Origin: Spelaeicoccus albus
Lineage (GTDB): Bacteria; Actinomycetota; Actinomycetes; Actinomycetales; Brevibacteriaceae
DNA: 64,000 nt
NCBI RefSeq assembly: GCF_013409065.1
Contig: NZ_JACBZP010000001.1
Span: 2,170,001-2,234,000, forward strand
Direction of reading: 5' to 3'
Under the pieces are notes generated by a model. The model worked only from the letters and a program-made list of their open reading frames with translations. It was not told the DNA's origin and made no database searches. Numbering within the stretch: the stretch's first letter is position 1; every line of letters starts with the position of its first letter. The position numbers and the translations under genes are program-made. This document shows, one piece after another, positions 15,433 through 21,122 of the stretch.

Positions 15433-16134
15433 ATGAGTGAACCGACGGAGATTTTGGGGCGTCTCGGTGTCGATATCGACACCGAGACGCTTCGTCATGC
15501 GCTGACGCATCGCAGCTACAGCTATGAACACGGCGGCATCCCCACCAACGAGCGTCTTGAATTCTTGGGCGACGCGGTGCTGGGGGTCGTCGTCACTGTG
15601 GCGTTGTACACCGACAATCCGGACCTGCCCGAGGGCCAGCTGGCCAAACGCCGGTCCGCGGTCGTCAACACGCGCGCCCTGGCACAGGTGGGCCGCCGGC
15701 TCGGCCTCGGCGACTTCATCATGCTGGGCAAGGGCGAAGAGCGCAGCGGCGGACGCGACAAGGACTCGATCCTTGCCGACACCGTCGAGGCCCTGATCGG
15801 CGCCACGCAGGTGGGCGCCGGCATGGACGCGGCCTGGGCCCTCGTGCACCGACTGATCGACCCGCTGCTGGCCGACGCCGCGACGCTGGGCGCCGGCATG
15901 GACTGGAAAACATCGCTGCAGGAGGCCTCCTCGGCCGCGGGCCTCGGCACGCCGTCCTACGAGGTGACAGGCACCGGCCCGGATCACGCTCGCCGGTTCA
16001 CGGCCGACGCCCGACTGGGCAGCACAACCTGGGGCACCGGCGACGGCAGCTCCAAAAAAGACGCCGAGGCGGCCGCAGCCGAAGCGGCGTATCGCGCCGT
16101 GACGGCCGAGCACCCCGGCGCTGTCGCCGGCTGA
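15433..16134 (+). CDS. rnc: Ribonuclease III
   Basis: The 233-residue enzyme cleaves double-stranded RNA, including rRNA precursors. The catalytic signature [13 protein letters not shown] lies near residues 37-49, the second acidic site is in DTVEALIG, and the C-terminal double-stranded-RNA-binding domain (about 155-228) ends with the [18 protein letters not shown] helix. The ATG is 13 bases after rpmF. The stop overlaps the mutM start as TGATG. Codons 10-19 form a perfect 32-base palindrome (15459-15490), noted separately as a possible self-cleavage hairpin. Confidence 0.96.
15459..15490. repeat. 32-base perfect palindrome inside rnc
   Basis: The sequence from 15459 to 15490 equals its own reverse complement without a mismatch; the centre is GTCGATATCGAC. 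In the mRNA it can fold into a hairpin of about 14 base pairs with a tiny loop, starting 26 bases into the rnc coding region. The encoded residues (about [13 protein letters not shown]) are usual for the family, so the symmetry arises from codon choice. Confidence 0.85.
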
Positions 16135-17033
16135 TGCCCGAACTTCCCGAAGTCGAGGTCGTGCGCGCCGGACTTGCCCGCTGGGTCGTCGGCCGCCGGA
16201 TCGACTCCGTCGACGTGGTCGAGCCGCGCAGTTTGCGCCGCCATCGTCCCGGCCCCGAGCACTTCACGGCGACCCTGGCCGGCCGAGAGATCACGGACGC
16301 CGTCCGGCGCGGCAAATATCTCTGGCTGCTGCTGACGAGCGGCAACGATCCGGCCCCGCTTGCCATGCTTGCCCATCTGGGCATGAGCGGGCAGCTGCTG
16401 GTGAAACCACCGGAAGCTCCGGCCGAGCGGCACTTGCGCGTGCGCGTGACGTTCGACGACCGCGACCTGCAGCTGCGGTTCGTCGACCAGCGCATCTTCG
16501 GATCCCTCCAGGTGACCGAACTCGTCACGACGGCGGACGGCGGGCCCGGCGGACTCGGACGCACCGGCCTGCCGCTGCTTCCCCCGGAGGTGGCCCATAT
16601 CGCCCGGGACCCGCTCGATCCCGCATTCGACGACAGTGATTTCGCCGACCGCGTCAGGGCCCGGCACACCGGAATCAAACGGGCGCTGCTCGATCAATCG
16701 CTCATTTCGGGGATCGGCAACATCTACGCCGACGAAGCCCTATGGCGTGCCGCACTGCACTATGCCAGGCCGACCGAGACGCTGACGCGGACGGCCATTG
16801 CCCGGCTGACCGACGCCGTCCGGCAGGTGTTCGGCGAAGCGCTCGACGCGGGCGGCACCAGCTTCGACGCGCTCTACGTGAACGTGAACGGCGAATCCGG
16901 CTATTTCGACAGGTCGCTGGACGTGTACGGACGCGCCGGCGAGCCCTGCAAACGCTGCGGCACCCCGATAGTGCGGGAGAAATTCATGAATCGCTCAAGC
17001 CACTTTTGCCCGGTCTGTCAGCGGAAACGCTAG
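16134..17033 (+). CDS. mutM: Formamidopyrimidine-DNA glycosylase
   Basis: The 299-residue base-excision repair enzyme removes 8-oxoguanine and formamidopyrimidines. The N-terminal catalytic PELPEVE (P2, E3), the RGKYLWLLL lysine segment, [22 protein letters not shown] and the C-terminal zinc finger with cysteines 272, 275, 292 and 295 are intact. It overlaps rnc by one base. The last 116 bases are homologous to a decayed fragment at 20991-21122, on the far side of the exporter/oxidase/TetR unit. The intact 3' end may therefore have arrived with that unit. Confidence 0.97.
16918..16994 (+). repeat. Left copy of the mutM 3'-end direct repeat
   Basis: These 77 bases inside mutM match 20992-21068 at 74 positions in the same orientation and without gaps. 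The mismatches are at 16924, 16949 and 16965. Similarity continues at a lower level to the mutM stop. The two copies bracket the exporter/oxidase/TetR genes. Confidence 0.92.
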
Positions 17034-17218
17034 TCGATCGGGCCGCCCCGGGCATACCCGGAACGACGGTAGGTGCGGTCTCGCGGGGCTCCTCCGACTC
17101 GCCGTACGTCAACTGATAGCCCAATTCCGGCCAGCCCCGGCGATGATCGCCGGTGTTCAGATCTGCTCTGCCGACGATGGCGTGAGTCAGTCGGCGGAAC
17201 TTTTGAAGTCCGTACAGC

Positions 17219-17248
17219 TTGCTGAACAGACCAAGTGGTCTGTAAAGT
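17219..17248 (+). promoter_or_regulatory. Promoter of the exporter-oxidase operon
   Basis: TTGCTG at 17219-17224 and TAAAGT at 17243-17248 are separated by 18 bases. The -10 box ends 6 bases before the exporter ATG, so the transcript is probably leaderless. The spacer is filled by an inverted repeat that is a likely TetR operator. Confidence 0.6.
17226..17243. promoter_or_regulatory. Likely TetR operator
   Basis: ACAGACCAAGTGGTCTGT is an inverted repeat with perfect 8-base arms and a 2-base centre. It sits exactly between the -35 and -10 elements of the exporter promoter, where a bound repressor would block RNA polymerase. The TetR gene at the other end of the unit is the obvious candidate ligand. 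Confidence 0.65.
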
Positions 17249-17254
17249 AGAGAC

Positions 17255-18793
17255 ATGGTCACCTCATACTCGACTCGGCGCAGTGGGGCGCGCACCTGGG
17301 CGGGGCTCGGGATCCTCACGTTGGCGGTGTTGCTGCTCGCGATCGACGGCACGGTGCTTGCTTTGGCGATTCCGGCGCTGACTGCTGATCTTGCGCCGTC
17401 GTCGACGCAGATCCTGTGGATCGGCGACATCTATTCGTTTGCTCTTGCCGGTCTGCTGGTGGTGATGGGGAACCTGGCCGACCGGATCGGCCGTAAGCGA
17501 CTGCTGATGTTCGGTTCGGTCGGTTTCGGTCTGTCTTCCCTGGCTGCGGCGTTTGCGCCGACTCCGGAACTGCTCATCGTGGCGCGTACGGTGCTGGGGA
17601 TCAGCGGGGCGACGATCATGCCGTCGACGCTGGCGATCGTGCGCAATCTTTTCCCGGATGCGCGCGAGCGGACTCGTGCCGTGGCGGTCTGGGCCGCCGG
17701 GGCGACTGCGGGGGCGGCAATCGGTCCGATCGTCGGCGGGGCGCTTCTGGAGCATTTCCACTGGGGAAGTGTCTTCCTCATCAACGTGCCGATCATGCTG
17801 ATCGTCGTCATCGGCGGTCTGGCGCTGCTGCCGGAGTCGCGCGATCCGGGGAAGGGCAGGATTGACCTCCTGTCCGCCGTGTTGCAGTTCGCCGCGATAG
17901 TGCCGATCGTCTACGCGGTCAAGCACCTCGTGGCCGCGGGGTACGACGTGACCGTCATCGGCGGAATTATCGTAGGCGTTGCAGCGGGCTGGTGGTTCAT
18001 CGTGCGACAGAGGCGCTTGTCGACCCCGTTGATCGATGTGGCGCTGTTCCGCAGGCCCGCCTTCAGCGGAGCAGTGGTCGCGGACACGGTGACGATCTTC
18101 GGGTTCGTGGGTCTGCTCTTTTTCTTTTCGCAGTATCTGCAGCTCGTGCGCGGCCTCATTCCCTTGGAGGCCGGTCTCGTCGATCTCTCGGCGTCGGTGA
18201 CCTCCGTGATCGTGATCGCTCTGGCGGGTGCGGCAGTCGGCTGGTTGGGGCGCGGGCGTGCGATCGGTGCGGGGCTTGCACTGGCCGCGGCCGGCCTCAT
18301 CGTCCTCGCCGTCGCCGAGGGAGCGGACCATCTGATCTGGATCGTCGTCGCGTTCGCGGTGATCGGATTCGGCACCGGACTGTCGATGACCCTGAACACG
18401 GATGCGATCGTGTCCGCGGCCCCACCGAAGCGCGCCGGCGCTGCTTCCTCGGTCGCCGAGACCGCCTACGAGTTGGGGGCGGCACTTGGAATCGCCGTGC
18501 TGGGGTCGCTGCAGAATGTCTTCTATCGGGCTCATCTCCCTGTGATCGACGACGACGCCACGCGAACGGTGGTCGAAGACTCGCTGGCATCGGCGACGTC
18601 CCACCTTGACCCCTCGGTTCCCGGGGTGGCCGGTCTTCTTGAGCAGGCGCGTGAGGCGTTCACGATCGGGATGCAGTGGACCTCGGTCATCGCAGCAATC
18701 CTCGTCGTCGCTGCCGTCGTCATCGCCTGGATCGTCATTCCGTCAGGCCGCGAGGAATCTCGCTCCGAGGCATCGCAACAGGCGATCTCATGA
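17255..18793 (+). CDS. MFS drug exporter, 14-helix DHA2 type (QacA/SmvA-like)
   Basis: The 512-residue integral membrane protein is a proton-driven major facilitator of the DHA2 family. TM1 carries AIDGTVLALAIPAL, the next block STQILWIGDIYSFALAGLL and the loop GNLADRIGRKRLL match QacA/SmvA exporters of quaternary ammonium and other cationic compounds, and the antiporter motif C region (GAAIGPIVGGALLE) is present. About 14 hydrophobic segments are visible. It is first in an operon with the amine oxidase and lies downstream of a palindromic operator. Substrate is inferred from family resemblance only. The unit separates mutM from smc and appears inserted. Confidence 0.88.
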   Translation: MVTSYSTRRSGARTWAGLGILTLAVLLLAIDGTVLALAIPALTADLAPSSTQILWIGDIYSFALAGLLVVMGNLADRIGRKRLLMFGSVGFGLSSLAAAFAPTPELLIVARTVLGISGATIMPSTLAIVRNLFPDARERTRAVAVWAAGATAGAAIGPIVGGALLEHFHWGSVFLINVPIMLIVVIGGLALLPESRDPGKGRIDLLSAVLQFAAIVPIVYAVKHLVAAGYDVTVIGGIIVGVAAGWWFIVRQRRLSTPLIDVALFRRPAFSGAVVADTVTIFGFVGLLFFFSQYLQLVRGLIPLEAGLVDLSASVTSVIVIALAGAAVGWLGRGRAIGAGLALAAAGLIVLAVAEGADHLIWIVVAFAVIGFGTGLSMTLNTDAIVSAAPPKRAGAASSVAETAYELGAALGIAVLGSLQNVFYRAHLPVIDDDATRTVVEDSLASATSHLDPSVPGVAGLLEQAREAFTIGMQWTSVIAAILVVAAVVIAWIVIPSGREESRSEASQQAIS

Positions 18794-18900
18794 CGATGCT
18801 CATCGACCGGGTCGCGATGCGCCCGTCCGTCGGTGCAGTTTCTCGCCGCGAGACTGGTGGGACGCGCGACCTCTCGCCGGATCGAAAGGAGAAACAGTGA
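18790..18900 (+). CDS. Possible 36-residue coupled small protein
   Basis: An ATG overlapping the exporter stop (ATGA) opens a frame of 36 codons whose TGA overlaps the GTG of the oxidase gene (GTGA). The peptide begins MTMLIDRVAMRPSVGAVS and ends DLSPDRKEKQ; it is polar and has no recognised domain. The double overlap fits a real coupled gene. It could equally be an untranslated spacer, since the oxidase has its own AAAGGAG ribosome binding site. Confidence 0.25.
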   Translation: MTMLIDRVAMRPSVGAVSRRETGGTRDLSPDRKEKQ

Positions 18901-20306
18901 CTTTACCTGAAAAGCGCACGGTCGACGTCGTCATCGTGGGTGCCGGCCTGTTAGGTCTCACCGCCGCCGACCAGCTCACTCGGAACGGCTACGAGGTCGT
19001 CGTCTTGGAAGGACGCGATCGCGTGGGCGAACGAATCCGCAGGGCAGAAGTAGCGGGAAATTCCGTCGATGCCGGGGCAACGTGGGTTGCGCCGGACCAC
19101 GCGGCGTTGCGCGAGCTTGCCGCCCGTCTCGGCATCGAGTTCGTTGCCCAGTTCCACCAGGGGAAAGGCGTGATCTCACTTGGCGGCAAGCGCAGGGTCG
19201 AGGGCCTCACCGCACTCGCGCCGTGGGTCATGGCCGACATCGCCAGGGTCATGAGCGTCCTGCAGAAGCGCGTCGACGACCTGCCGCTCGAGAACCCGTG
19301 GACGCACCCGAGCGCGGCACGCCTCGACGCCATGTCCTTCGGTGAGTGGCTGCGCCGCACACGGGCGCTCAAGGGCACACGCGCGTTCATGAACATGATC
19401 TGTACCGTGCATTGGGGAGCACCCGTCGGCGATGTATCGCTGTTCAACGTGATGCGCTACATCAAGACGCTCGGCGGACTCGAGCACATGCTCGCCGTCG
19501 AGGGCGGCGACCAGCAGGATCGCATCCTCGGCACCGCGCACGGACTCGTCACGGCGCTTGCTGAGACGGTCGACTCGCATGCGCGCACCGACGCTTCGGT
19601 TGAGAAGTCGACTGCCGCCATCGATACCCCGCGCGTTCTGCTCGACGCACCCGTCGAACGCATCACCACCAGCGAGGACCGGGTCACCGTCGAGACCGGA
19701 ACTCATCGCATCGATGGTCGATACGTCATCGTCACGGCGTCCCCAATGCACCGTGCCACCATCGAGTTCTCACCGGCCCTGCCGGCTCAACACTACGGAC
19801 TCGCCCGCAGCTGGCGTCTGGGCGCGCTCAGCAAGGCCTTCGTCGCCTACGACCGCCCCTTTTGGCGTGACGACGGCCTGTCCGGCGAGGGCATGTCCGA
19901 CGACGACACCGTCTTCCTCACCTTCGACGTGAGCCCCGGCGCTGCCGGACCCGGCATTCTCATGGTTTTCTGCGATGCCCGCGGATTCGACGCATACACG
20001 TCCTTCGAACGACGACGTCGCGTCATTGGACACCTCGCCCACCTCTATGGAGAGCAGGCGCGAGACAGCATCGACTACACCGACTTCTCCTGGGGCAACG
20101 ACACCTTCGCACCCGGTGGACCGAACCCCGCCGTCGGGCCCAAAGCGTGGACCGCGTTCGGGCCCTACCTGCGCGAGCCGGTTGGGCGCATCCACTGGGC
20201 GGGATCCGAGACCGCAGGCCGGTTCTCCGGCACCATGAACGGCGCGATCCTGTCCGGCCAACGCGCCGCAACCGAACTCGTCACACGCCTCGAGGGCGAG
20301 AAGTAG
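18897..20306 (+). CDS. Flavin-containing amine oxidase
   Basis: The 469-residue protein is a flavin amine oxidase (monoamine/putrescine oxidase family), which oxidises amines to aldehydes with release of hydrogen peroxide and ammonia. The FAD-binding VVIVGAGLLGLTAA at residues 10-23, VVLEGRDRVG, DAGATWVAP and the C-terminal IHWAGSETAGRFSGTMNGA are present. The usual RVGGRT reads RVGERI. GTG 18897 follows AAAGGAG at a suitable distance. It is cotranscribed with the exporter and ends 12 bases from the convergent TetR gene. The substrate may be an amine also handled by the exporter; that link is inference. Confidence 0.85.
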   Translation: MTLPEKRTVDVVIVGAGLLGLTAADQLTRNGYEVVVLEGRDRVGERIRRAEVAGNSVDAGATWVAPDHAALRELAARLGIEFVAQFHQGKGVISLGGKRRVEGLTALAPWVMADIARVMSVLQKRVDDLPLENPWTHPSAARLDAMSFGEWLRRTRALKGTRAFMNMICTVHWGAPVGDVSLFNVMRYIKTLGGLEHMLAVEGGDQQDRILGTAHGLVTALAETVDSHARTDASVEKSTAAIDTPRVLLDAPVERITTSEDRVTVETGTHRIDGRYVIVTASPMHRATIEFSPALPAQHYGLARSWRLGALSKAFVAYDRPFWRDDGLSGEGMSDDDTVFLTFDVSPGAAGPGILMVFCDARGFDAYTSFERRRRVIGHLAHLYGEQARDSIDYTDFSWGNDTFAPGGPNPAVGPKAWTAFGPYLREPVGRIHWAGSETAGRFSGTMNGAILSGQRAATELVTRLEGEK

Positions 20307-20318
20307 TCTCGTTTCGAG

Positions 20319-20900
20319 TCAGGCAGACAGGTGCCCGCCCAGAGTGAGCGACAGAAGAAGCTCGCGCTGGACGGCCACCTCGTCGGCGGGCTGTCCGCCG
20401 TACGCCATCGCCGCTGCCAGGCCCTCGGCGGCTCGCCTCACCACGAAGATCCGATCGGCCGGCAAACCATCGATCGCGAACTGCTCAGCCCACCACCGCT
20501 CATCGGCCCGAGAAAGGTCCGCCACCTCGGGAATGTCATAGACACCGACCCAGGACGGGGCCGAGGTGAAGTACTCGACCGTCTCTTCCGCCCCCGAGCA
20601 CAGAGCCCGGACGTAGGCGCGGAGCATCTTCCCCGGCTGATTCTCGGACAGATCCAGATGGGACTGGACCGCGGCACGGAAGCGGCGGTTCGCGTCATCG
20701 ACCAACGCCACGATGAGCGCCTCGCGAGTTGGGAAGTGATGCAGCAGCCCGCCCTTGGAGACCCCGCCATCCTTCGCGATCGACGCGAGCGACACCCCCG
20801 TCCCCTTCTCCGCGAATGCGCGTACCGCCGCCGACAGCACGGCGGCCCGCGTGCGCTCGGAATTGCGCGACTGACGCGCACGATCTGAGACTGCGTCCAT
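20319..20900 (-). CDS. TetR-family transcriptional regulator
   Basis: The 193-residue repressor has the TetR N-terminal helix-turn-helix: TRAAVLSAAVRAFAEKG, then VSLASIAKDGGVSKGGLLHHF with the recognition helix near residues 45-55. The rest is a helical ligand-binding domain without an assignable ligand. It converges on the amine oxidase. The palindrome in the exporter promoter is the expected target. Its own start lies 6 bases after a TAGACT box, so the mRNA is probably leaderless. Confidence 0.9.
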   Translation of the reverse strand: MDAVSDRARQSRNSERTRAAVLSAAVRAFAEKGTGVSLASIAKDGGVSKGGLLHHFPTREALIVALVDDANRRFRAAVQSHLDLSENQPGKMLRAYVRALCSGAEETVEYFTSAPSWVGVYDIPEVADLSRADERWWAEQFAIDGLPADRIFVVRRAAEGLAAAMAYGGQPADEVAVQRELLLSLTLGGHLSA

Positions 20901-20906
20901 ACCGCC

Positions 20907-20912
20907 AGTCTA
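20907..20912 (-). promoter_or_regulatory. -10 box of the tetR gene (leaderless)
   Basis: On the minus strand TAGACT lies 6 bases before the ATG. Just upstream is an AT-rich stretch flanked by ACCGACCG and TTAGGT, an imperfect dyad that could serve autoregulation. Confidence 0.45.
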
Positions 20913-20990
20913 CCTAACAAGTAAATCGGTCGGTTGTGCCGACCCATAAGCTTGTAATTTCCTCGTAGCCGACTCGCAATTGCCCCGCCG

Positions 20991-21122
20991 TTGGACGGGT
21001 ACGGACGCGCCGGCGAGCCCTGAAAACGCTGCGGCACCGCGATAGTGCGGGAGAAATTCATGAATCGCAGCGCATATTTCTGCCCGAACCGCCAAAAAGT
21101 GCCAAGACGCGCCCGCTGGTGA
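20991..21122 (+). pseudogene. mutM: Decayed 3' end of a second mutM
   Basis: Read in the mutM frame, the fragment encodes LDGYGRAGEP, a TGA stop, then [16 protein letters not shown] followed by AYFCPNRQKVPRRARW and a stop. It is the MutM zinc finger region. The first cysteine codon has become TGA and the last cysteine is arginine, so it cannot function. The first 77 bases match mutM at 74 positions, while the tail diverges but stays homologous as protein. It abuts smc, where an intact mutM would be expected in many actinobacteria, and suggests the ancestral 3' end was displaced when the exporter/oxidase/TetR unit arrived. Confidence 0.88.

Follow-up and report, generated by a model that had tools for sequence, protein, structure and literature searches.

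A probable family of cargo islands docking in the 3′ part of mutM, traced from a locus of Spelaeicoccus albus

A stretch of 64,000 nucleotides of the Spelaeicoccus albus genome (assembly GCF_013409065.1, contig NZ_JACBZP010000001.1, positions 2,170,001 to 2,234,000 of the forward strand), referred to as the window, contains a gene island between mutM and smc. As had been described in an initial annotation made from the sequence alone, genes for an exporter, an amine oxidase and a TetR regulator lie downstream of an intact mutM and are followed by a second, decayed mutM 3′ end, which is called the remnant (Table 1). The two 3′ copies form a direct, ungapped repeat with identity at 76 of 80 positions (95%), in agreement with the value of 74 of 77 given initially for 16918–16994. 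The other direct repeat families in the same 6 kb are only 20–34 nt long and 71–90% identical, and thus the mutM repeat is far above the background. A query covering positions 16850–17080 found only two places at the DNA level in the 4.03-Mb genome, namely both repeat copies. Beyond the repeat the intact and the remnant copy diverge, and the remnant runs to a stop codon at 21120–21122. Reading of the remnant verified the loss of two zinc-finger cysteine codons, one of which has become TGA, while the other has become an arginine codon. The reading put forward here, with a probability of roughly two in three, is that the window island belongs to a family whose members dock, with varying cargo, in the 3′ part of mutM and are moved by a recombinase acting in trans.

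The exporter had initially been called QacA/SmvA-like; it is a DHA2-type MFS protein, and SmvA was indeed among its nearest models, but the matches did not reach the model cut-offs. The amine oxidase gene lies within an open frame of 18606–20306, in which the GTG at 18897 is the likely start. Together with the regulator, these genes probably constitute a regulated efflux unit, as judged from their sequences, and the last part of the intact mutM was probably supplied by the island.

Table 1. Features of the mutM–smc interval of the window, and examples of a small gene of related islands (G, genomes; L, loci).
Feature	Position	Strand	Basis or remark
mutM, intact	16134..17033	+	Pfam Fapy_DNA_glyco, H2TH, zf-FPG; C-terminal part of element type
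Candidate docking motif, 23-bp mutM stretch TTCGACNNNCTNTACGTNAAYGT	16863..16885	+	0 mismatches
Place matching the SGYF-codon crossover of well-resolved relatives	16894..16902	+	Analogy with L151:1738-1739; for the window by analogy only
Left copy of the 80-nt repeat	16915..16994	+	Repeat alignment
Element-type mutM tail, 12 residues	16995..17033	+	Reading of the sequence; end comparisons
Left-end copy of the docking motif, 59 nt past the mutM stop	17093..17115	+	4 mismatches; same position in other islands
Palindrome ACAGACCA-AG-TGGTCTGT just upstream of the exporter gene, probable TetR operator	17226..17243	+	By reading; binding presumed
DHA2-type MFS exporter, cargo	17255..18793	+	Nearest models LfrA/QepA/SmvA, below their cut-offs
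Flavin amine oxidase, cargo	18897..20306	+	PF01593, E 3.4e-59; start codon chosen by reading
TetR-family regulator, cargo	20319..20900	-	PF00440, PF17937
Right copy of the repeat, decayed	20989..21068	+	Repeat alignment
Remnant tail SAYFCPNRQKVPRRARW with stop, native type	21069..21122	+	Tails with final RW in G002, G037 and the G003 remnant
smc	from 21204		Downstream of the mutM remnant
Small helix-turn-helix gene, examples in other islands	L113:5742-6146, L117:8118-8504, L227:13817-14158		

Insertions have occurred repeatedly at the mutM 3′ end. A 59-residue query from the MutM C-terminus was compared with 60 genomes of the family of the window, with one genome per species in the survey, and an extra mutM 3′ fragment was found in 11 of them (G000, G003, G006, G009, G026, G031, G059, G067, G069, G073 and G080). 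In G006, G059 and G073 mutM and some of the fragments are on different contigs, and the arrays run over contig ends; the fragment of G003 comprises 17–19 residues. Four further genomes (G060, G028, G023 and G024) have an element-type MutM tail and no clear remnant, G060 with a weak fragment (E 0.003) about 100 nt upstream of smc. Extra fragments were also present in 4 of 47 genomes of a second family (G221, G372, G427 and G255). The MutM borne by the island of G069 was compared with 394 class-level and 396 order-level genomes, and the closest places were in G372 (100%), G435 (87%), G225 (82%), G407 (81%, partial), G627 (80%) and G313 (78%, partial). G435, G627 and G407, which belong to three further families and were examined as lists of open reading frames (ORFs), contain a native mutM, an island mutM and a downstream remnant. 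In G225 no remnant was found up to the contig end, and ORFs resembling IS3-type transposases were noticed by eye. Named genomes, some of them from outside the actinobacteria, contributed a further 80 loci with flanks of up to 8 kb, and a single remnant was detected among these, in a metagenome-assembled genome (MAG) of the Nocardiaceae (L082). The insertion hotspot suspected in the initial annotation could thus be traced in several families, including the predicted genomes with different cargo between a complete mutM and a 3′ remnant. Sites devoid of an insert had been predicted as well, and a near-empty case was found in G008, in which the MutM match stops 35 bp before smc.

Plasmids were searched with the cargo of the window, the C-terminus of MutM and pieces of the G069 island and yielded MFS or mer matches with less than 90% identity or mutM homologues, and a 266-base left end had no match in plasmids. 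One match from a phage collection was followed up and set aside as a bacterial-looking scaffold filed as phage. This scaffold (MT835574.1, L177/L192, filed as "Bacteriophage sp.") contains mutM, an AbiD-like ORF and a remnant; the surroundings of mutM are of bacterial type and include an island, and the record resembles a contig of a bacterium.

Comparisons of MutM proteins and of remnants showed, as had initially been proposed, that the element brings its own mutM 3′ end. In genus g2, which is probably Brevibacterium, 21 genomes with native-type ends encode MutM proteins with 43–50% identity to the window protein in the N-terminal part and 59–70% in the C-terminal part. In six genomes (G026, G031, G060, G028, G023 and G024) the identity is 43–49% in the N-terminal part but 76–83% in the C-terminal part, and these proteins end with CQRKR or nearly so. 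The C-terminal part of these six proteins came from elsewhere, and the proteins are chimeric. In contrast to these intact ends, the remnants resemble resident genes: a reference set of 13 native and 11 element-type ends was used for 15 remnants, 13 of which were closest to native ends, the remnant of G067 being 100% identical to the native end of G005. Margins were narrow for G031 (68 versus 61, 70 versus 66), and one native reference, G009, itself carries a remnant. The remnants of G255, G372, G435, G627, G407 and L082 and the second remnant of G006 were omitted from this comparison. The two exceptions were one remnant of G006 (G006a) and that of the window, the tail of which ends with RW, as is also seen in the native tails of G002 and G037 and in the G003 remnant.

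The right ends of the islands comprise a type A and a looser type-B group, which are conserved over about 80–150 nt upstream of the remnant despite unlike cargo and which join mutM at the GYF codons. A 136-nt type-A end was found at full length in two of 396 genomes of the order (G372 with 100% and G026 with 99% identity), the three other matches being 21–35 nt long, and a 156-nt type-B end matched G026, G313, G006 and G221 with 77–100% identity, in addition to two matches of 23–34 nt. The island of G069 was compared with that of G372, which belongs to the other family, and identities of 99.5% over 5.7 kb and of 98.3% over the last 0.76 kb were found. The identity begins at CGGCTACCTCGACATTG and stops at AAGTCGGG, and the mutM flanks on both sides are unlike. 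Therefore, the movement of the islands is best described as site-specific. In islands of this type the resident mutM is cut at SGYF, and a whole mutM is carried by the island. The initial annotation had placed the boundary at the repeat; the repeat is real, but the usual crossover is upstream of it, at the SGYF codons, which correspond to about position 16897 in the window.

At the left junctions of G069, G067, G372 and G059 a dyad was found that has 24–27 matches in 35 positions and a centre within one base of the boundary, compared with 15–17 matches for the next-best centre. Its arms are the candidate docking motif of mutM and an inverted copy inside the island. A hairpin or single-strand mechanism was weighed for this dyad and set aside in favour of paired protein sites as the simpler explanation; half-sites paired on either side of the crossover would be in keeping with a tyrosine recombinase or with a large serine recombinase. 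With at most one mismatch, the motif occurred in 16 genomes only at mutM or at island ends, while a reversed control pattern yielded 5 matches in total with two mismatches. Weaker direct copies are present 46–63 nt past the mutM stop codon at 10 of 22 left ends (7 of 19 plus 3 of 3), including that of the window, compared with 1.25% of random stretches; the interval of 46–63 nt was picked post hoc, and G026_E1, G069 and G067 represent one element. A degenerate form with up to six mismatches lies 23–49 nt upstream of 7 of 19 right junctions, the window not being among them. A scan of viral contigs yielded no exact match to the motif; six exact matches to the inverted motif, all in one coding gene of related contigs, were taken as chance.

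The junctions also revealed that islands stack. G026 contains two islands in series, the first with a type-A and the second with a type-B right end, several modules of G059 are spread across two contigs, and in G313 a type-B right end is joined directly to a type-A left end. The contig with the latter junction (L184, G313:C27) carries aconitase and dUTPase-like ORFs instead of smc, and the junction represents either another location in the chromosome or a break in the assembly.

The cargo differs between the islands at mutM and includes mer, cad, ars and chr genes, ApeA, AbiD, CBASS, restriction and PDH genes; the exporter, oxidase and regulator of the window represent one further type. For 53 ORFs from the inserts, the Pfam and PADLOC families at the top of the listings (25 of 75 each) included MerB, metal-type E1-E2 ATPases, ArsR and LMWPc as well as ApeA, AbiD/Abi_2, a type IIG enzyme and an oligonucleotide cyclase. 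Single scans of island ORFs revealed MmeI domains, a T5orf172 protein, SMODS with AGS_C, SLATT_4, CueP, a multicopper oxidase and a Na/Ca exchanger, and PDH subunits, ChrA and type I restriction genes were assigned by reading translations. Conjugation genes were not noticed in the ORF lists or Pfam scans (25 of 75 families in one listing), no dedicated search having been made. Two big cargo ORFs next to defence-type genes (L177:9628-10986 with 453 residues and L185:13087-15126 with 680 residues) had no Pfam match at 1e-3 and are candidates for new defence genes. At L189:5609-6241 (G427) small secreted-type cargo proteins were noticed, one of them phospholipase A2-like by eye.

Genes that could move the islands were searched for between mutM and the remnant. 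No tyrosine recombinase (PF00589) was found in 20 genomes and no serine recombinase (PF00239) in 16 genomes, G435, G627, G407, G225, L082 and L177 being outside both scans, and G221, G313 and G080 had no resolvase-family match anywhere. Large serine recombinases of G006 (L199/L200, G006:C51) and G372 (L202) were discarded as candidates, since they are outside the mutM intervals at a distance of about 20 kb; conjugation-type genes were seen by eye in their neighbourhood, and they probably belong to other integrative elements. The occurrence of the nearly identical G069/G372 island in two families, without a recombinase of its own, is best explained by a recombinase in trans. The use of Xer was weighed as a further possibility. 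The initial annotation had offered recombination between mutM alleles and a mobilising gene in trans as two possible movers; for the family as a whole a site-specific recombinase in trans is favoured and the exchange between alleles less so, because the ends of the G069/G372 island have no extended homology to either flank.

Many islands of types A and B contain, close to their right end, a gene for a helix-turn-helix protein of 113–134 residues (examples in Table 1). The protein is weakly excisionase-like, with a match to HTH_17 in one of three copies (E 1.6e-4, below the cut-off), matches to PHROG 66 with E values of 0.003 and 0.05 and no NCBIfam match, and from its sequence it is possibly an excision or directionality factor. 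A frameshift interrupts the gene in the G069, G372 and G026 islands. Such weakly excisionase-like genes near many right ends, broken in several cases, would be compatible with the view that the islands were decayed integrative and conjugative or integrative and mobilizable elements (ICEs/IMEs) that had lost a mutM-specific integrase and were now stranded as immobile cis-mobilizable elements (CIMEs), and the architecture and the tandem accretion would fit CIMEs as well. Nevertheless, this explanation is rather unlikely. The G069/G372 island has no recombinase match and a frameshifted helix-turn-helix gene and is still 98–99.5% identical across families, and thus it seems to have moved in the recombinase-less state. 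In addition, no integrase-bearing parent was present in the tested intervals or in the ORF lists of G435, G627 and G407.

Several observations weigh against mobile islands moved in trans, and against the window as one of them. The recombinase was not found in the searches made, and the left-end motif is absent or weak at 12 of 22 left ends. At the right ends, the motif has more than six mismatches or is located elsewhere in 12 of 19 cases. In the window neither a type-A nor a type-B right end is recognisable, the right end lacks the motif (nine mismatches), and no homologue of the small helix-turn-helix gene was detected at E 1. The window remnant begins about 90 nt beyond the usual crossover, it is closest to the intact end of the window itself and not to a native end, and the tract between both copies is long and nearly identical. 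A rival explanation for the window is homologous recombination, by which its unit would have arrived together with the mutM 3′ end of a close relative through a RecA-dependent crossover inside the 80-nt tract, without a site-specific enzyme. The sharp divergence that follows the 76 of 80 identical positions is in accordance with such an event, as are the remnants of G003, G255 and the Nocardiaceae MAG (L082), which almost exactly repeat part of the intact end. However, it would leave unexplained the left-end motif of the window and the fixation of the junctions at one codon in islands with ends that have no more than about 11 bp in common with mutM. This explanation is considered improbable; among the rivals for the window copy alone, homologous exchange inside the 80-nt tract is nevertheless the main one. 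If the mutM 3′ end had simply been duplicated in tandem, independently of the cargo, the high identity of the two window copies would be accounted for, but such a duplication can hardly be reconciled with the different tail types of remnant and intact copy and with the recurrence of remnants with different cargo in many genomes.

In favour of the docking of an island, three features are preserved in the window copy: its intact mutM ends with an element-type tail, the motif is present at its left end, and the tail of its remnant is of native type. The window copy is a probable older, partly decayed member of the island family, the right end of which has probably decayed and the two 3′ copies of which were probably homogenised.

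Taken together, the following course of events is proposed. A recombinase encoded outside the islands would join an island to mutM at the SGYF codons, at which the junctions were observed. The left end of the island carries a replacement 3′ end with zinc finger and stop codon, or a whole mutM, as the sequences show, and the host thereby keeps a mutM that is complete in sequence and presumably active. The resident 3′ end would be displaced to the far side, where it is observed as the remnant, and later islands would dock at the same place and generate tandem arrays like those seen in G026 and, over two contigs, in G059. It is tempting to speculate, at somewhat less than even odds, that this represents a cassette-like actinobacterial system, with mutM as docking site, stacking islands without recombinase, a mutM end or gene as entry ticket, and a trans-acting recombinase that recognises both the motif in the FDxLYVNV codons and the copies of this motif at the ends of the islands. 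A conserved gene of DNA repair would thus harbour a hotspot of integration by which genes for metal resistance, efflux and anti-phage functions are spread between families. The motif, the ends and the crossover are concrete targets for finding the trans-acting recombinase, and the swapping of the MutM zinc finger by mobile DNA in these lineages would matter for phylogenetic trees and for annotation.

Integron cassette arrays also consist of cargo units without a recombinase of their own that are lined up at one anchor. In contrast to integrons, the mutM islands are multi-gene units, their anchor had no integron integrase in any genome searched (PF00589 had no match in the intervals), and each island must restore mutM.

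The ssrA-specific islands of Dehalococcoides are similar in that diverse cargo gathers at one conserved gene, many of the islands lacking an integration module; according to the accessible part of the report, 16 of 31 contain this module (PMC3146451). Unlike the mutM islands, they target the tmRNA gene, and some carry integration genes (PMC3146451). For Brevibacterium casei 13A, one predicted island lists fpg1, merR1, merA and merB, and the next one lists lspA, ctpG, cmtR, cueR, fpg1 and a chromate transporter (PMC12467314, accessible part). This gene content, matched by gene lists and not by DNA, is the same as that of the G059/G073 array; the glycosylase is interpreted there as DNA repair capacity, and an insertion site in mutM is not mentioned in that part of the article (PMC12467314). 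The main text of a study of actinobacterial ICEs (PMC3218068) does not mention mutM either, and no description of mutM as an integration site was found among the papers listed when one open-access library was searched by mutM, its full name or Brevibacterium islands. The examined loci contained no ICE or IME with mutM as target, and a site-specific recombinase of its own was not found for any island in the genomes scanned.

The closest known kind of element are the CIMEs with accretion, as defined in the accessible part of PMC5704250. Like these, the mutM islands have att-like flanks derived from a gene 3′ end, no integrase of their own in the searches made and tandem accretion at one site (PMC5704250, same part). 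Both an attL and an attR at the end of the target gene were present in G069, G067, G372, G059 and others, and in the window on the left side only; an integrase was lacking in all scanned intervals (PF00589 in 20 genomes, PF00239 in 16 genomes), and accretion was seen in G026 and G059. Measured against that description, the mutM islands differ from CIMEs in that no integrase-bearing parent was found and that their ends are common to unrelated cargo in several families; furthermore, some of them carry the whole target gene, and the motif of the target site is copied at the island ends (PMC5704250).

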